The notes under the pieces are model-generated. The model was not told where the DNA came from and did no database searches. It worked only from the letters and a program-made list of their open reading frames with translations. This document shows positions 6,659 to 41,714 of a stretch of 50,508 nt of DNA, one piece after another. The stretch covers positions 1-50,508 of the forward strand of contig WYBR01000043.1 in NCBI GenBank assembly GCA_011525805.1. Direction: 5' to 3'. A program made the position numbers and the translations under genes. This DNA comes from Vicinamibacteraceae bacterium. GTDB lineage: Bacteria; Planctomycetota; Phycisphaerae; Phycisphaerales; UBA5793. Every line of letters starts with the position of its first letter. Position 1 is the first letter of the stretch.

Positions 6659-9082
6659 TCACTGAACACTCCCTTCGAGGCTGATCCCCTCGTAGAACGG
6701 GACATCGCCGGCGCCACGACGCCGCTTGATCCCCGGAACGGCGGCCGCCAGGTCTCGGCCGAATGACATCTTGCTGCTGACGACGTGGCGGCCATCGCGC
6801 TCGCACCACCCCTGCCACGCCTTGTAGAGGTCATCCACCCATGCGCGGCAGCCCGGTGCGACCGTGCAGCACTCGCGCACGAATGCGCCGACCGGCGACG
6901 CGAGGTCCTCGAGATCGCGTATTGCGTCGGCAACGCTTTCGGGCTGCACGAATCGCCCGCGTGCCTTGAGTCGCTTCCACCCTTCAATCGCCCACAGCAG
7001 GATGCCGGGGAGTTCAGCTATGAGTTGATCCGTGAGCGTCAGATCTTCCTGCCCGTAGAAGCTGTTGGTCAGCCGCAGCACGAGGAATCGTCCGGCCAGA
7101 GCAGTGCTGGCGTCGTTAAGCCGCGGCAGCTCATTCGTGAGGAACATGAACCTCGTCGGGAGTTTCATGCTCACCGAGTCGAGGTACTTCCGGTCGATCG
7201 TCAGCGCGTCTTCACCCGAGATGCACAGCAATCGCTCGACGACGATGCTGATGTTCTCGCCGCCGAAGCGCGCATCGCTGACGATCGCGAGCGACTTGTC
7301 GATGAGCGGCTGAAGGCCGAAGTTGCCTGCGAGCCCGCTGGTGGTCGGCCCCGCGACGTTGCCGTGACCGATCATGTAGCGCATGATGCGACCGATCGTC
7401 CCCTTGCCAGAACGTCGCGGTCCGACGAGCAGCAGCATCTTCTGCTGAGATGTGTCGCTCGTGAGGCAATACGCCATCCACTCCTGGAGCAGCTCCATTG
7501 ACTCGATGTCATCGCCGAAGAGCTGCTCCATGAACTTGATCCACCGCTCCGGCGGCTCGGGATCGGGGTCGTAATCGAAATCGAGCGCATTGATGGTGAA
7601 GAGCGCCGGCGTCGGCTTGAGGATGCGGCCCGTCGGGATGTGCAAGTTCAGTGACTTGCAGGGGAGAATTTCCAGCGCCGGCAGGCGATCGGTGCGGGTG
7701 TCGAGCCATGATGGCGCGATTGTCGAAGCGGGAATGTGAACGTACGCACGAATCGTGTCCAGCGCCTGCCTGACTGTCGTCGGATTGGATTCGAACGGCT
7801 TGAGTTCGAAGTCCTTGATCGCCTTGTTGTACACATAATGCAGCGCCGCATGCAGCCAGGGCTGGAGCCGGTGCTTGAGCCATTCGTCCTCGACCTGCTG
7901 ATAGCGGTTGTCGCGCCAAAGCATGACCACGCCGCCGTAGGAGTGAACCGTGCGGCCCTCAGCATGCTGGTGGAACTCGTCGACGAACGCCCTGGCAGTG
8001 GGAAGCGTGCGCTTGGCAGACAGCACGAGCCGGCCAGTCTCGGGGTCGCGCTGGCCGAGGGGCACGAATCCGGCATCATCGTTGCATGCCGGGGCATCGT
8101 CTTGCGTTGCACAGGTTTCGGTGCTCGGGCCCTCCGATTTCACGCTGCCGTTGGGTGTGCAGTCGGCGTCGGAGTGCGCGCGGCTCGGCGCGACCTGCCG
8201 CGGCGCATCACGCAGCCAGCCGTAGGGCTTGTCGTGCGGCTTGGTCGCCGCGTCTTCGACCTTGTGTCGCAGTTCCTTCTCGCTCCACGGCGGTTCACAG
8301 CGCGGGTTGTAGCGTTCGAGCAGCATGCGCAGCGCAGTTTCCGGATCGAGGCCGAAGCCATGCACCATCGCGGTGGCGGCGGTGTAGGTCGTGTCGTGCC
8401 CGCCCTGGCCGGAGATCGCCGGGTCCATCGCGTCGAGGTAGGCGGTGGCGCGGCGGAGCAGCGCCTCGTCGGCGGGAGCGGCAGCGCGGCTCGCCGGACG
8501 CGCCGCCGCAGGCGCTGCCGCGCCGGTGCGAGCAACGACGGCCTGAGCGAGCCCTTCAACCGCTTTGGCGAGAACTTCATGCTCCACGGTCGCCGGCTCG
8601 CCCGTGAGCCACTCGTAAGCCTCGCCTGATGGGTGAATGCTCGGCCCGACCACGGTCTGACAGCCGGTGCTGCGGATCTCGACAATCATCTTCTTCGTGC
8701 CGGGAATGTGGTGCTTCCTGGTCACCGCGCCCGGGCAAAGGTACCACCAATGCGAATTGGGCGCGCTGGCGCGGCCGGTGATCGCGAGCGTCGGCGGCAG
8801 GTACTGCGGCGCCAGTTCAATCGCCTCCGGGCAATCGAGATCGACGTCAGTGAGCCCGCCGCTCGGCTCGCCCAGCAGGAGACCGATGTTTCCGGCACCA
8901 CCGAAATGCTCTGAGAGATCCTCGAGCTTGAGTCGCAGATCCGGCCAACCCTTGTCGCGCGGACCCTTTTCCCGCAATGGGATCGGCAGGCATCGAAATC
9001 CGCGCATCGTGTAGGCGCGAGCGGCGTCGAGCCGGCTCATGCCGTCGTGGACCGATGCGCCGTTCTGTGTCACGGGTTCCAT
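6659..9082 (-). CDS. Prim-Pol / SF3 helicase replication protein
   Basis: 807 residues from ATG 9082, which overlaps the previous TGA (TGATG) and has AGGAG upstream. Residues about 15-185 are an archaeo-eukaryotic primase-polymerase domain with LTDVDLD (metal ligands D79, D81), HWWYLC (H111) and VEIRSTGCQTVVGPS. Residues about 205-285 look like a primase C-terminal helical domain. From about 430 on is a D5/P4-type superfamily 3 helicase: Walker A GPRRSGKGT (554-562), Walker B-like LAIVSDAR (598-605), and motif C FMFLTNELPRL. Such fusions start and unwind replication of phages, satellites and integrative plasmids. It is the key gene showing that the element can replicate autonomously. Confidence 0.92.
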   Translation of the reverse strand: MEPVTQNGASVHDGMSRLDAARAYTMRGFRCLPIPLREKGPRDKGWPDLRLKLEDLSEHFGGAGNIGLLLGEPSGGLTDVDLDCPEAIELAPQYLPPTLAITGRASAPNSHWWYLCPGAVTRKHHIPGTKKMIVEIRSTGCQTVVGPSIHPSGEAYEWLTGEPATVEHEVLAKAVEGLAQAVVARTGAAAPAAARPASRAAAPADEALLRRATAYLDAMDPAISGQGGHDTTYTAATAMVHGFGLDPETALRMLLERYNPRCEPPWSEKELRHKVEDAATKPHDKPYGWLRDAPRQVAPSRAHSDADCTPNGSVKSEGPSTETCATQDDAPACNDDAGFVPLGQRDPETGRLVLSAKRTLPTARAFVDEFHQHAEGRTVHSYGGVVMLWRDNRYQQVEDEWLKHRLQPWLHAALHYVYNKAIKDFELKPFESNPTTVRQALDTIRAYVHIPASTIAPSWLDTRTDRLPALEILPCKSLNLHIPTGRILKPTPALFTINALDFDYDPDPEPPERWIKFMEQLFGDDIESMELLQEWMAYCLTSDTSQQKMLLLVGPRRSGKGTIGRIMRYMIGHGNVAGPTTSGLAGNFGLQPLIDKSLAIVSDARFGGENISIVVERLLCISGEDALTIDRKYLDSVSMKLPTRFMFLTNELPRLNDASTALAGRFLVLRLTNSFYGQEDLTLTDQLIAELPGILLWAIEGWKRLKARGRFVQPESVADAIRDLEDLASPVGAFVRECCTVAPGCRAWVDDLYKAWQGWCERDGRHVVSSKMSFGRDLAAAVPGIKRRRGAGDVPFYEGISLEGSVQ

Positions 9083-34702: not shown

Positions 34703-36343
<1,641 letters not shown>

Positions 36344-36364: not shown

Positions 36365-36396
36365 CACCCCCGCCGGTCGAAAGACCGGCGGGGGTG
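36365..36396 (+). terminator. groEL terminator-like hairpin
   Basis: A perfect 14-bp stem (CACCCCCGCCGGTC / GACCGGCGGGGGTG) with GAAA tetraloop (36379-36382), 22 bp past the groEL stop. Only a weak T stretch follows, so it may be a termination or RNA-stabilising hairpin. Confidence 0.8.
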
Positions 36397-36429: not shown

Positions 36430-36846
36430 ATGGACTCTCAGATGATTCTTCTGGGCCGAATCCTTGGCGAAGTTTATCGATTGCAGGAGCGGTCTGACAA
36501 GGACGACGCCCAGGTCTTTGGCCTCCGGAACGGAATGGAGTACGCAATCGAGCAGGAGCTCTTGGAGATTGGCTTCGTTTCGAAGTCTGACACGCAAGCG
36601 ATCGAAGACGCCTTGGATGAGTTGGACAAGAGACATCGCCAAGGGAGTGGTGCTGCCGATTACTACTCCTTCGAGAGCGGACTTACGAGCCGGGGCATTG
36701 GCCGTAGCGCCATTTTGGTGGTCTTTGAATACCTTTTGCGGGACTCTCGATTCGCTGATGTGATCCACGCTCTGGCTGAAGGCCATGCTGCGATCGAGAT
36801 CAAGGGGCGCGTGAATCGGGTTGAGCGAGAATTGGAAGCCGACTGA
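36430..36846 (+). CDS. Hypothetical protein in low-GC patch
   Basis: 138 residues from ATG 36430 (GGAAAGGAAG upstream). Composition is clearly lower in GC than groEL. The protein is mostly helical: MILLGRILGEVYRLQERSD, AIEQELLEIGFVSKSD, AIEDALDELDKRH, SAILVVFEYLLRDSR, VIHALAEGHAAIEIKG. No signal peptide or known motif. It may be a partner of the SIR2-like gene downstream, but that is only inferred from position in the same patch. Confidence 0.65.
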   Translation: MDSQMILLGRILGEVYRLQERSDKDDAQVFGLRNGMEYAIEQELLEIGFVSKSDTQAIEDALDELDKRHRQGSGAADYYSFESGLTSRGIGRSAILVVFEYLLRDSRFADVIHALAEGHAAIEIKGRVNRVERELEAD

Positions 36847-36860
36847 AGCGAGCGACCGCG

Positions 36861-37067
36861 GTGAACTGCGAAGTCATCATCTACTGGAGCGAGGAGGATG
36901 GGCGTCTTATCGCCCAAGTGCCGGAATTGCCCGGCTCCATGGCGGACGGTCCGACCTACGCCGAGGCGTTGAGCGCTGCGGACGTGGTGGCCGGCTAATG
37001 GATCGAAACCGCTCGGGCGATGGGTCGCTCCATCCCCGAGCCGCTCGGCAAGCAGAGGTACGCGTAA
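36861..37067 (+). pseudogene. hicB-like antitoxin gene broken by a stop codon
   Basis: From GTG 36861 the translation NCEVIIYWSEEDGRLIAQVPELPG and then YAEALSAADVV follows the HicB partial RNase H fold. An in-frame TAA at 36996-36998 interrupts it, and the same frame continues with WIETARAMGRSIPEPLGKQRYA up to TAA 37065, the normal HicB ending. A single base change of a Glu/Gln-like codon would explain it. No hicA toxin is adjacent. Readthrough is possible but less likely. Confidence 0.8.
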
Positions 37068-37147
37068 TGGCGACGATCGCCGAGATCGACGAAATGAAGG
37101 ACAAAGTCCCCGCCGGCGGAGGTGTTGTGCGGGACGTCAGACAATGA
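37067..37147 (+). pseudogene. Duplicated groEL 3' end (mini-ORF)
   Basis: A 26-codon frame (MATIAEIDEMKDKVPAGGG...) matches the GroEL tail ([19 protein letters not shown]). At DNA level 37075-37118 equals 36268-36311 at 39 of 44 positions. The frame overlaps the hicB end (TAATG) and the start of the SIR2-like gene (ATGA). It is best read as a leftover groEL end marking an insertion or duplication, although it may be translated as a leader for the next gene. Confidence 0.75.
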
Positions 37148-38046
37148 TCACCACGCGGACGTTGTTCATTCTCGGCGCCGGTGCAAGCAAGCCCTACGGT
37201 TTTCCGATTGCGCGAACACTCTACGATCAAATCGCCGAAGGCGAGTTTGACCTGGCACCAGACGATTTTGACGGAACAACTCTCACGAAACTGCGAACTA
37301 CGACGAAGCAAGAGTTTTGCTCGGCGCTGCGCGATTGTGGAATGACGTCGGTCGACCGCTTCCTGGAGTACCGCCGCGACTTTGAAGCTGTGGGCAAGTA
37401 TGCGATCGCGAGTGCGCTGATCAAAAAGGAACAGCCAGAGACTCTATTCCGCGCTGATCCTGTCGAAGACTGGTATAGGCGCATCTTTACCTCGATGGCG
37501 TCGCCGCTGAATGACTTTCACCGCAATCAGGTCGCGTTCGCCACGTTTAACTACGACCGCTCTCTTGAGCACTTTTTGACAATCGCCTTGGCCAACCTGC
37601 ACCGTGGGGACGCTACTGCCGCGATGGAGGTGGCACGGAAGCTCCGAATCGTTCATCTCTACGGCACGCTCGGTGACTACTTTGAGCAGACGCCTCTCTT
37701 TCGCGTATATAATCCACTTCCTCATCCCGCATTTATCGATCGTGCTGCCAAGAGCATACGGATATCCACTCACGAGACAGTGGAGAATGGGCGCTTCTCT
37801 GCCCTAGACGAGCTCTTCGAGTGGGCGCAGAGAGTCGTCATTCTCGGGGTGGGCTTCACCGACCACGAGAACATTCGACGACTGGGGTTGCAAAGGCTGG
37901 CGCCGGCAAAGCCGCTGCTCGCTACACGCCTAGGATTGACTGACTTGGAGTGTTCAACCGCTGTTGCAATCGCCGAACGGCGGATTGGGTGGGCCGATAA
38001 GGACGATGACTGTTTGATGTTGCTCCGAACGCGGATCGAGTTGTGA
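37144..38046 (+). CDS. SIR2-like domain protein (NADase candidate)
   Basis: 300 residues; start ATG 37144 overlaps the preceding mini-ORF. LFILGAGASKPYGFPI is the Rossmann GAGAS motif of the SIR2_2 group; FATFNYDRSLEHFL carries the Asn/Asp pair and IVHLYGTLGD the candidate catalytic His; VVILGVGFTDHENIRRL is the late Rossmann strand. Members of this group cleave NAD+ during phage defence, often with a second subunit (Ago, HerA, ThsB-type or others); none of these is next to it. GC is much lower than that of groEL or pdxA, consistent with horizontal gain. Confidence 0.8.
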   Translation: MITTRTLFILGAGASKPYGFPIARTLYDQIAEGEFDLAPDDFDGTTLTKLRTTTKQEFCSALRDCGMTSVDRFLEYRRDFEAVGKYAIASALIKKEQPETLFRADPVEDWYRRIFTSMASPLNDFHRNQVAFATFNYDRSLEHFLTIALANLHRGDATAAMEVARKLRIVHLYGTLGDYFEQTPLFRVYNPLPHPAFIDRAAKSIRISTHETVENGRFSALDELFEWAQRVVILGVGFTDHENIRRLGLQRLAPAKPLLATRLGLTDLECSTAVAIAERRIGWADKDDDCLMLLRTRIEL

Positions 38047-38088: not shown

Positions 38089-38307
38089 ATGCGAATCAGT
38101 TACGACAGCGAAGTGGACGCCTTGTACATCCGGCTGATCGAGGGCGAGCAGCAGTGCCGGGTGGTGCGCCTGTCGGACGAGGTGGCGCTGAATCTCGGTC
38201 CCAACGAGTCGCTGGTAGGCATTGAGATTCTGGACGCCCGGAACATCCTCGGCCAGGGCCAACTGCCGCAGATCATCGTGGACAACCTGCCGGTGCGGGC
38301 GGCGTGA
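38089..38307 (+). CDS. DUF2283 protein
   Basis: 72 residues: RISYDSEVDALYIRLIEGE, VVRLSDEVALNLGPNESLVGIEILDARNIL. This is the whole DUF2283 pattern, a small beta domain often paired with DUF4258 genes and suspected to be an antitoxin. No DUF4258 gene is seen here. It lies 42 bp after the SIR2-like gene, and its GC is nearer the genome average than that of SIR2, so it may be the right border of the patch. Confidence 0.85.
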   Translation: MRISYDSEVDALYIRLIEGEQQCRVVRLSDEVALNLGPNESLVGIEILDARNILGQGQLPQIIVDNLPVRAA

Positions 38308-38429: not shown

Positions 38430-39521
38430 TCAGAAGTCCTCCGCCGAAATCGGATCCACATCCAGATTCCCGCGAGTCTGGAGGATCAACTCGATCGTGT
38501 AGCCGCTGTATCCTTCGGCAGTTTTCGTAAAGTCGAAGCGATCATCGCACCGGGAGTAGGCAGCGGCTTCGCCGAAGTCGAGAAGCGGGCCAAACCACGA
38601 CTCGCCTGCAGCGTATTTGATCTGATACGAACCGACGGGGACTTCGGTCTCAAACGGCTCACCACCGCGGATGAAAGCGGTGAGAATCTCCCGTTTGCTG
38701 GTCCAGTCCACCACTTTGATGTAGTAGTGTTTTCCCGATGTGGTCTTGATTTCCAATGGGGCGACCCCGGTGCCGAAGAAGTTGCGGGTCATCACTCCGG
38801 TCAGCGGGAGGGGATCGACCGCGTTCTGCATCACCTTCAGGACGGCAGCATCGATTGAACTGGTTTCAAGCACCAATCCGGTTCGACTCAGGCGGGCCGC
38901 CAGGATTTTGCGCAGGCGCTGCTCGCGCGTCTCTACGGGCGGTAGCGGGCTGCGGGTACTTGAGCGGGCAGGAGCGGATGAGCCGCTGATTGCCGGTGGC
39001 TGCGTGGGACTGCGCGATGCGGGGGTATTGCGAGACACGTTTGCTGGCGGCGTCGAACGAGACGCCTGTGAGCCCGCACGATTATTCCATGCTCCATTAA
39101 TGATGCCGCTGATGATGCACATACCGAGGAGGGCGCATGCAACGATGACGGTGGCCCACTGCCCGCGCGACCACTGGTAGTCCACGGTAGCGGGCGGCTG
39201 CGAGGGCGGCGCCTGGGATCGCTGCGAGCGCCACGCCGATGCCTTGGCCGCTGACGCGCGCGGCGAATCGAAATCGGCGCAGTCGGACTGCAGCCAGTTG
39301 GGGGCGCGCAGCAGACCAAGGTTCGCGCGAAGTTGTCCGATCGTCTTCGCGACGTTCCAGGTGCGGTCGTAAACGTACTTCCGCGTTGGATTCAGCAGGA
39401 TGTCGCGCGCAGCGCGAGCAGTGCCGGGATCCTCGCCTTGGATCGAAGCGATCGCCCGTTCGATCGCTCGGGGGTCGTCAACGCAGCGGTAGAGGCGAAT
39501 TCGCTTGTAGAGGTCTTTCAT
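38430..39521 (-). CDS. Membrane protein with degenerate J-like domain
   Basis: 363 residues; its ATG overlaps the stop of the upstream TerB-J gene (ATGA). The N-terminal 70 residues (YKRIRLYRCVDDPRAIERAI; AARDILLNPTRKYVYDRTW) look like a J domain without HPD, ending in the usual YDR helix. A Pro/Ser-rich linker encloses one membrane helix (WATVIVACALLGMCIISGII, about 122-141). The exterior C-terminal domain (KHYYIKVVDWTSKREILTAF, VPVGSYQIKYAAGESWFG, LILQTRGNLDVDPISAEDF) recalls a domain found in other bacterial J-like membrane proteins. Probable partner of the upstream co-chaperone. Confidence 0.7.
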   Translation of the reverse strand: MKDLYKRIRLYRCVDDPRAIERAIASIQGEDPGTARAARDILLNPTRKYVYDRTWNVAKTIGQLRANLGLLRAPNWLQSDCADFDSPRASAAKASAWRSQRSQAPPSQPPATVDYQWSRGQWATVIVACALLGMCIISGIINGAWNNRAGSQASRSTPPANVSRNTPASRSPTQPPAISGSSAPARSSTRSPLPPVETREQRLRKILAARLSRTGLVLETSSIDAAVLKVMQNAVDPLPLTGVMTRNFFGTGVAPLEIKTTSGKHYYIKVVDWTSKREILTAFIRGGEPFETEVPVGSYQIKYAAGESWFGPLLDFGEAAAYSRCDDRFDFTKTAEGYSGYTIELILQTRGNLDVDPISAEDF

Positions 39522-40255
39522 GCGGGGACGAGCCTCTCGTACGCCGCACGAATGCGCTGGAAGGTGAGCTCCGCAGCCTTGATGGCCTCCGGTCCAAGCG
39601 ACGTGAACTTGTCGGGGTGGTGGACCATGGCCATGCGGCGGTACGCCGCCTTGATCTGGTCGAGTGTCGCGCCTTCATCGAGTCCGAGCACGGCCAGGTC
39701 ACGCAGCCGACGCAGATCGTGCGCCGCGCTGGATGCGGACGATGATGCGTCGCGGGGCCGCTGCTGATTCGAGGTGTCCTGCTGCTGCGATCGGCTTCGG
39801 CCTTCTCGAACCTGCCACCACTCGATGCTGCTCTGATCGCCGGGAGTCGGAAACGGGTCGCCCGTCATCTCGCGGAAGAGCGTGTCAAGGTCCTGCGGTG
39901 AGTAGCCAAGAAGGTCGGCCAGAAACCTGACAATGTGAATCTCGCTCGTCGTGAAATATCCATCCTGCAACGCGATGCCAAGCGCCATCTGCAAGACAAG
40001 GCGGCGCTGCTTGCCGTCGAGCAAGAGGAGTATTTCAGAGGCGTCCTGAAGATCATCAGTTCTCGGCGATAGCGAGAGATTAATCACATCGTTCAATGCC
40101 GCCTCGTTGTCACTCCCCGCCGCGATCGTGCGAAGCGCGATCAGTTCCTCATCGGCGATACGCCCATCCGAGGCAGCGATCCACGCCATCATGAGCAGCA
40201 TTGCCGCCGTCGTGGGGCGCTCGGTTCGCTGGATGATCTGAGCGAATGTCGCCAT
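39518..40255 (-). CDS. TerB-J domain co-chaperone (DjlA-like)
   Basis: 245 residues. Residues about 5-135 are a TerB-like helical domain (LLMMAWIAASDGRIADEELIAL; ALGIALQDGYFTTSEIHIVRFLADLLGY). A Gln/Ser-rich linker leads to a C-terminal J domain (187-245) with DLAVLGLDEGATLDQIKAAYRRM and the key HPD (MVHHPDKF). It would stimulate a DnaK-type ATPase; TerB domains are linked to metal or envelope stress. No membrane segment, unlike DjlA, but the coupled downstream gene supplies one. Confidence 0.85.
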   Translation of the reverse strand: MATFAQIIQRTERPTTAAMLLMMAWIAASDGRIADEELIALRTIAAGSDNEAALNDVINLSLSPRTDDLQDASEILLLLDGKQRRLVLQMALGIALQDGYFTTSEIHIVRFLADLLGYSPQDLDTLFREMTGDPFPTPGDQSSIEWWQVREGRSRSQQQDTSNQQRPRDASSSASSAAHDLRRLRDLAVLGLDEGATLDQIKAAYRRMAMVHHPDKFTSLGPEAIKAAELTFQRIRAAYERLVPA

Positions 40256-40926: not shown

Positions 40927-41475
40927 TCACCGCCGGAAGAACGCCGCGGCGGCGAGGTAGCGATCGATACTGACCGTCCGGGTGACGAGTTGAGTTTCCC
41001 AGCCGAGAGTTGTTGAGGTGCCGGTGTATTCGGTCTCCGCGCCGTCATCGTCCCTGATGACGTCACGGTGGAAGGTCGTGTCGGTGCGCGGAGTGTCGTA
41101 GGTTTCAGTGCGCTGGACGCGGTCGGTGCCGACGTAGTTGATGCGGTAAAGGACGAGGTCGGCCCCGATGCTGCGCGCGAACTCGTCGAGCTTGCGCACA
41201 TAGTCAGGCTGCGCTAAGGCGCCCACGAGTCCGCCGTCACCCTTCTCGAAGTCGAAGACGCTGTAGCCCAGCGCCTGCGCCTCGGCCTCGGTCGCTTCCA
41301 GTTTCTCGAGAAAGAGCGGATCGGCGTAGGCCGAGCAGTCGATGAGGTCGATGGCCTGTTCTTCGGGCAGGGCGGCGTGGCGCTGCTCGGAGACCATGAG
41401 GTAGGAGCGCTGCCACTCGTTGACGGCGCAGCCGGGCAGGAGGAGCAGTGCGGCGGCGGCGAGGAGCCGTTTCAT
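40927..41475 (-). CDS. Lipoprotein, paralog 1 of a pair
   Basis: 182 residues from ATG 41475 (GGAGG upstream; the frame is open further out without a start signal). Signal with LPGC. Shared with the gene at 45335: VNEW directly after the lipid Cys, SEQRHAALP, DLIDCSAYADPLFLEKLEA, LGYSVFDF, FARSIGADLVLYRINYV, TPRTDT, and WETQLVTRTVSIDRYLAAAAFFRR at the end. The conserved core after the Cys suggests a small secreted alpha/beta domain. Function unknown; not an obvious operon with its neighbours. Confidence 0.8.
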   Translation of the reverse strand: MKRLLAAAALLLLPGCAVNEWQRSYLMVSEQRHAALPEEQAIDLIDCSAYADPLFLEKLEATEAEAQALGYSVFDFEKGDGGLVGALAQPDYVRKLDEFARSIGADLVLYRINYVGTDRVQRTETYDTPRTDTTFHRDVIRDDDGAETEYTGTSTTLGWETQLVTRTVSIDRYLAAAAFFRR

Positions 41476-41542
41476 GCAGGGCCTCCGATCGGGGGATTTG
41501 TAGTGGGCGACGGAGCGCGAGGCAAGCGAGTAGCCCGGGACT

Positions 41543-41714
41543 GCAGGGTGGGATAAGCGCGGCTTTGGAAGCGCATCCCACCTTCGTTGGGCGTACGTCG
41601 GCGGAAGGGGCATCGCGCTGAGTACGATTGCCCGCGCGAAGGATTCGGCGCTTGCGACTTCGGTTGCCGAACCCGGTGGGATGCGCTCCGGGACCATCGC
41701 TTATCCCAGCCTAC
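41543..41714. repeat. Inverted pair of 40-bp REP-like elements
   Basis: Left element 41543-41582 and right element 41675-41714 are each 40 bp and inverted to each other. Both read (G)(T/C)AGG.TGGGATAAGCG at the outer end and GCGCATCCCACC at the inner end, with a variable middle. The right one starts with GTAGG, as in REP sequences moved by RAYT transposases. The stop codon of the leucine-rich-repeat gene (TAG) lies in this GTAG. No RAYT gene is in the window. Confidence 0.85.

Follow-up and report, generated by a model that had tools for sequence, protein, structure and literature searches.

A solitary SIR2-like protein encoded downstream of groEL in a planctomycete is a candidate partner-free NAD-consuming defence effector

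The stretch of DNA analysed here (50,508 nucleotides, contig WYBR01000043.1 of assembly GCA_011525805.1; called the window in the following) carries an intact gene for a small SIR2-like protein in a variable site downstream of groEL (Table 1). On balance we favour the interpretation that this protein is a self-contained NAD-consuming effector of abortive infection, which works without a partner and was acquired horizontally into this site. According to this interpretation, phage infection would trigger the protein. NAD+ would be bound in the Rossmann cleft by the GAGAS motif, Asn136 and Asp138, and the nicotinamide-ribose bond would be broken; the NAD+ level would then drop and phage replication would halt. 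No partner gene would take part, and both sensing and activation would lie inside the protein, which would probably self-assemble as other small SIR2 effectors do. Horizontal transfer would have brought the gene to the variable site, where relatives hold other defence genes.

Table 1. Positions in the window of the SIR2-like gene, its motifs and the features surrounding it
Feature	Position	Strand	Basis
groEL, left border of the variable site	34703-36343	+	92-96% protein identity in three congeners
138-aa protein (P0002)	36430-36846	+	No Pfam match over cut-off
HicB/UPF0150-like remnant	36861-37067	+	In-frame TAA at 36996-36998; weak UPF0150 match, E 0.013
groEL 3'-end duplicate, 26-codon micro-ORF	37067-37147	+	89% over 44 bp to the groEL 3' end
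SIR2-like protein (P0001), 300 aa, single domain	37144-38046	+	Intact ORF, AlphaFold2, fold matches, 118-member alignment
GAGAS dinucleotide-binding motif, residues 11-15	37174-37188	+	118-member alignment
NYDR motif, residues 136-139 (FNYD, 135-138)	37549-37560	+	118-member alignment
HLYG, residues 171-174	37654-37665	+	Family alignment; register from KomC, SIR2_2 and sirtuin profiles
DUF2283 protein (P0003)	38089-38307	+	PF10049, E 7.2e-12
Right border gene, 256-aa ORF	40927-41697	-	74% over 181 aa downstream of groEL in congener G393; 52-aa partial match in congener G303

The SIR2-like ORF runs without interruption from its ATG at 37144 to its stop codon at 38046. Met1 is kept in at least 90% of 94 family rows, which backs the start codon, and the ordered set GAGxS...NYD...HxxG did not arise once when the protein was shuffled 100,000 times. 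With a GC content of 56.0% (GC3 65.1) the gene differs from the whole window (66.8%). The gene for the 138-aa protein is similar to it (55.2%, GC3 64.7). groEL has a GC content of 64.7% (GC3 91.8), and the DUF2283 gene is host-like (63.5%, GC3 86.3). The SIR2-like gene was recently acquired and lies in a foreign patch. An earlier sequence-only reading of this DNA had described it as an orphan gene in a low-GC patch, with which these results agree. A scan for promoters and terminators around the gene revealed nothing telling beyond shuffles.

In profile searches the Pfam family SIR2_2 (PF13289) matched the protein with 14.7 bits (E 0.033), below the gathering cut-off of 24.5 bits. PADLOC gave weak SIR2 matches (best E 0.001), and an NCBIfam scan of the 300-aa protein gave no match. 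That a PF13289 search of the genome of the window found nothing is thus explained by the profile missing this protein. Within the family 82 of 94 members match PF13289 at E <=0.1, the best at 8.5e-9. The AlphaFold2 model, calculated from an alignment of 93 loci (picked by length and source) and the window protein, has a mean pLDDT of 94.1 and a pTM of 0.92. It shows the Rossmann fold and the small helical subdomain of the SIR2 superfamily. In VIA-align 2 comparisons over residues 1-300 the predicted model reached Z scores of 12-15 to many SIR2 proteins, among them SIR2/HerA (15.2), a further SIR2 protein, from a KomBC complex (PDB 9v0g, 278 aa; 14.3), BcThsA (14.0) and DSR2 (13.4); these comparisons were drawn from the best 1000 Foldseek chains, and other families may also match. 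Since the SIR2 matches span all 300 residues, no separate sensor domain remains. The gene is real, and the small SIR2-fold protein that it encodes is one SIR2 domain and no more.

The best sequence-profile match in the PDB is KomC (8zsf and 9xvc, 264 aa; E 4e-7 and 1e-8), like the window protein a small single-domain SIR2 protein. The GAG and NYDR motifs of the two align. KomC is the SIR2 NADase of the Kongming system; however, no Kom-type partner was recognised beside the window gene. The SIR2 domains of DSR2 and ThsA share its fold, with Z scores of 13-14 across the full model, but these proteins are longer and have further domains, whereas the window protein ends with its SIR2 domain. Nezha (SIR2-HerA) shares the SIR2 fold and gave the highest Z score, yet a HerA ATPase was not matched in the flanking ORFs scanned. 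The SIR2 fold is also common to SPARSA (SIR2-APAZ/pAgo), but neither the flanking ORFs scanned nor the 300-aa protein gave a short pAgo or APAZ match. In the ten ORFs flanking the SIR2-like gene PADLOC found no defence gene. The earlier statement that none of the known partners lies alongside is thereby confirmed.

Two described proteins are relevant as precedents. AbiH is presented in PMC3506569 as a predicted Sir2-superfamily enzyme of abortive infection. The profile of this single-gene lactococcal system (PF14253) is matched at E <=0.1 by 13 of 94 family members, the best at E 2.7e-4; the window protein, however, stays at 12.5 bits, below the cut-off of 30.9. DSR2 depletes NAD+ via its Sir2 domain according to PMC10981675, with N133 and H171 as the catalytic pair. 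That the window protein also has a relevant histidine numbered 171 is a coincidence. Given AbiH and DSR2, a SIR2-like protein acting in abortive infection is in principle nothing new. As far as our searches reach, three things are new: the H-x-[Y/H]-G family, the inversion of histidine conservation in it, and its site next to groEL. Neither the family nor the site was found described in a literature search, which mostly covered journals that need no subscription.

Conservation of the active site was assessed in an alignment of 118 rows (the window protein and 117 others) from 130 loci. Left out were 13 loci: three with the gene split over frames (L016, L018, L085), three with less than 220 aa (L102, L108, L142) and seven duplicates (L062, L075, L080, L094, L116, L119, L125). 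Of these duplicates, L075 and L080 (Planctomycetota) have the same sequence as L002 and L004, and L094 (Phycisphaerae) the same as L005, a locus from the class of the window, which would place the window in a planctomycete of the class Phycisphaerae. The GAGAS motif is kept almost throughout (G11 in 116, A12 and G13 in 117 each, S15 in 113 rows). The same holds for the NYDR motif, in which N136 and Y137 are found in all 118 rows, D138 in 117 and R139 in 116. Asn136 aligns with the catalytic Asn of the sirtuin/DSR2 type, so that the NxD arrangement of SIR2-type NADases is present. The near-invariance of N136, Y137, D138 and R139 argues for a retained active site.

The histidine is a different matter. 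The sequence-only reading had listed GAGAS, the Asn/Asp motif and the catalytic His as all present. The first two stand; the His it referred to is H171, two residues before the known catalytic position, which is occupied by Tyr173. In profile alignments Tyr173 falls on H146 of KomC, which is mutated in structure 9xvc. H146 directly precedes a Gly in KomC, whereas the window protein has Tyr there (Y173-G174) and its His two residues earlier. A profile-profile alignment to other SIR2_2 proteins (probability 97) gave the same register with Tyr173 at the catalytic His. The corresponding alignment to sirtuins was weak (probability 1.8), with an identical local register.

In control proteins the order His-Gly was invariable. 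All 12 sirtuins, taken from related genomes of the order, have the His before Gly, and two residues earlier Glu in 11 and His in one. Among the SIR2_2 proteins, His stands immediately before Gly in all 19 whose NxD is readable; the place two residues ahead of this His varies (Lys, His, Tyr and others). These controls were obtained with a motif filter, which yielded a protein for 22 of 30 SIR2_2 loci (L170-L199), 19 of them with a readable NxD, and for 12 of 14 sirtuin loci. The filter required NxD but not HG, which was sought up to 160 residues after NxD (60 for sirtuins). In the SIR2-like family conservation is inverted: 116 of 118 members retain H171, whereas at position 173 there are 67 with Tyr, 50 with His and one with Phe. 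About 50 of the 118 carry both His residues. Parsimony counted 23 Tyr/His switches at position 173 on a quick tree with mostly weak branches; the well-supported (starred) branches force one.

H171 is thus kept while position 173 alternates, which means that either H171 took over or the Tyr tunes or abolishes activity. A more far-reaching interpretation builds on the first option: the solitary H-x-[Y/H]-G family would be a partner-free NAD-consuming phage defence with its essential His moved two residues upstream; in this genus it would be situated in a defence site next to groEL, and the repeated groEL tails there would be traces of earlier gene exchange. We put this combination forward only tentatively. 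H171 would do the work, and the canonical position would be free to alternate between His and Tyr. If the protein is active, SIR2 NADases could work with a relocated His, and this would alter which SIR2 proteins are called active or dead in genome scans.

The second option leads to an impaired SIR2-fold protein, which would bind NAD+ or ADP-ribose-like ligands as a sensor or structural partner and would not be an NADase. The window protein, like 67 of the 118 members, has Tyr where the catalytic His is expected, whereas both control groups keep the His throughout; it could indeed be a weak enzyme or a pseudoenzyme. However, N136, Y137, D138 and H171 are near-invariant across a very diverse family in which many members have both histidines, and a recurring partner gene is absent. 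We therefore regard an impaired protein as unlikely.

To describe the family, a profile was made from the window protein and 15 relatives from its own phylum. A search of the GTDB genome set with this profile returned 252 encoded relatives. In virus contigs (IMG/VR) 29 loci were found, which may represent prophages or miscalled host DNA; two family queries against 50,697 phage records detected no family member. Among 80 of the 252 genome relatives, Planctomycetota, Proteobacteria, Bacteroidetes, Acidobacteria, Gemmatimonadetes and candidate phyla are represented. Some copies reside on Rhizobium and Agrobacterium plasmids. The occurrence is patchy, with 17 of 392 genomes of the phylum and 7 of 61 nearer relatives (the genome of the window being counted in both) and none of four congeners. 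If active, the protein would add a one-gene candidate for NAD depletion across many phyla, one that Pfam scores below cut-off and that NCBIfam does not match in the case of the window member.

No recurrent partner emerged around these genes. When 1026 neighbour ORFs of 117 loci were clustered, the largest cluster comprised six loci with scattered positions, and 12 other window genes that were compared had no match at E 1e-5 in the 130 SIR2-family loci. Some loci have a flank of only about 1.5 kb or end at a contig edge, where distant partners could be missed. The family is widespread and stand-alone. PADLOC models matched at E 1e-12 numbered 106 in 150 near ORFs (a random choice from 301) versus 12 in all 140 far ORFs of the same loci; models and not ORFs are counted here, and one kinase can match dozens of overlapping models and inflate the total. 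The neighbourhoods thus lean towards defence, but with this inflation the comparison does not amount to a test. Pfam families in the near set were mixed: AbiJ_NTD4, TIR_2, AAA_21, N6_Mtase and DpnI occurred alongside housekeeping families, and most were ordinary genes.

This ordinary company, which includes that on Rhizobium plasmids, would also suit a housekeeping or metabolic NAD-dependent enzyme, e. g. a deacylase or ADP-ribosyltransferase, with no role in defence. Yet the very patchy distribution, the foreign composition and the defence-type site speak against such a role. Furthermore, the zinc-binding CxxC of deacylase sirtuins (PF02146) is absent from the 300-aa protein, which has four single Cys and no PF02146 match, and the genome already encodes a canonical sirtuin separately. 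A housekeeping function thus seems quite improbable.

Within the window, the sequence-only reading had nominated the 138-aa protein and the DUF2283 protein as sensor or antitoxin of a minimal defence unit. For the 138-aa protein no relative was found in the 130 SIR2-family loci, in 293 other genomes of the phylum or among viruses. The relatives that were found are two Paenibacillus plasmid records with 27% identity, and in the one examined SIR2 is not nearby. AlphaFold2 without an alignment modelled the protein with a pLDDT of 50.8. For DUF2283 the 130 loci gave nothing significant (E 0.49, from a single locus that is recorded twice). Copies with 88-89% identity are present at the groEL site of the congeners G303 and G392, both without SIR2. 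As DUF2283 is kept beside three different cargoes in the window, G303 and G392, it belongs to the site and not to the SIR2-like gene.

A two- or three-gene unit, with SIR2 as the toxin and either neighbour as sensor or antitoxin, is hence very unlikely: the 138-aa gene shares the foreign composition of the SIR2-like gene (GC 55-56%, GC3 65), so that both could have arrived together in this one genome, the genes lie near one another on the same strand, and the small DUF2283 protein forms a toxin-antitoxin-like pair with DUF4258 in G303, but neither neighbour co-occurs with the family, DUF2283 is host-like in composition, and the HicB remnant and groEL tail split the 138-aa gene from SIR2. Toxin-antitoxin pairing with the 138-aa protein or DUF2283 was rejected on co-occurrence, as no recurrent pairing was found. 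In the literature search DUF4258 and DUF2283 were not found described together. The check that had been proposed along with the unit, co-occurrence of the neighbours and conservation of the NADase residues, therefore gave a divided answer, negative for the neighbours and positive for N136 and H171. What survives of the proposed unit is probably a defence gene, in view of the defence-type genes of the congeners at the same site, and from sequence comparison it is better described as SIR2 alone.

These congeners define the variable site. In the window the order is groEL, 138-aa gene, broken HicB-like gene, groEL tail, SIR2, DUF2283, two genes in reverse, a 144-aa ORF and the border gene. In G303, groEL is followed by DUF4258, DUF2283, a HicB-like gene, a 70-aa protein, a 90-bp groEL tail and genes for HTH, HNH-SAVED, CD-NTase and E2, and then by the partial border-gene match. 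The last four genes before this match constitute a CBASS operon (L146, 4069-7588, minus strand), called by both Pfam and PADLOC. In G393, the genes between groEL and the border gene encode an 80-aa protein related to the 70-aa one, a protein kinase and putAbiC (the latter two at L145, 6334-8656, minus strand). In G392, a Schlafen/AlbA_2 protein (SLFN_AlbA_2), DUF2283 and a relative of the 70-aa protein follow groEL before the contig ends. No groEL of this group was found in the fourth congener searched, G372.

Thus all three congeners with the orthologous groEL have a defence-type gene downstream of it, and none has this SIR2. From these three congeners, in one of which (G392) the site reaches the contig edge, we infer that the stretch downstream of groEL is a defence hotspot. 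In this planctomycete genus it would be a concrete place to look for further defence genes. An integrase was not recognised among the ORFs scanned at the site.

The HicB-like remnant shares 80% DNA identity with an uninterrupted HicB-like ORF at the congener locus L146. No HicA was noticed beside the HicB-like gene. The micro-ORF formed by the groEL tail begins with an ATG that overlaps the HicB-like stop, and its TGA overlaps the ATG of the SIR2-like gene (ATGA). A groEL tail of 44 codons is also present in G303 (L146, about 7900-8030, minus strand). Each copy reads in frame from a new ATG and overlaps the stop codon of the gene ahead of it. The tails may have been left behind by integration at the 3' end of groEL or by recombination; alternatively, they are possibly translationally coupled micro-ORFs. 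In the interpretation that we favour, the broken HicB-like gene and the groEL tail would likewise belong to the site and not to the SIR2-like gene.

Some further features of the site were observed. The protein of 70-80 aa occurs at the groEL site of three congeners (L146, 8034-8243, minus strand; L145, oriented 2408-2650; L144, 3687-3899) and was not seen in the window; the L146 copy has no Pfam match. A TerB-DnaJ fusion (39518-40255, minus strand) lies inside the variable stretch of the window and adjoins a 363-aa protein of unknown family. Directly after groEL, at 36367-36396, the window has a strong GC-rich hairpin without a T run, and a hairpin of similar form follows groEL in G303.
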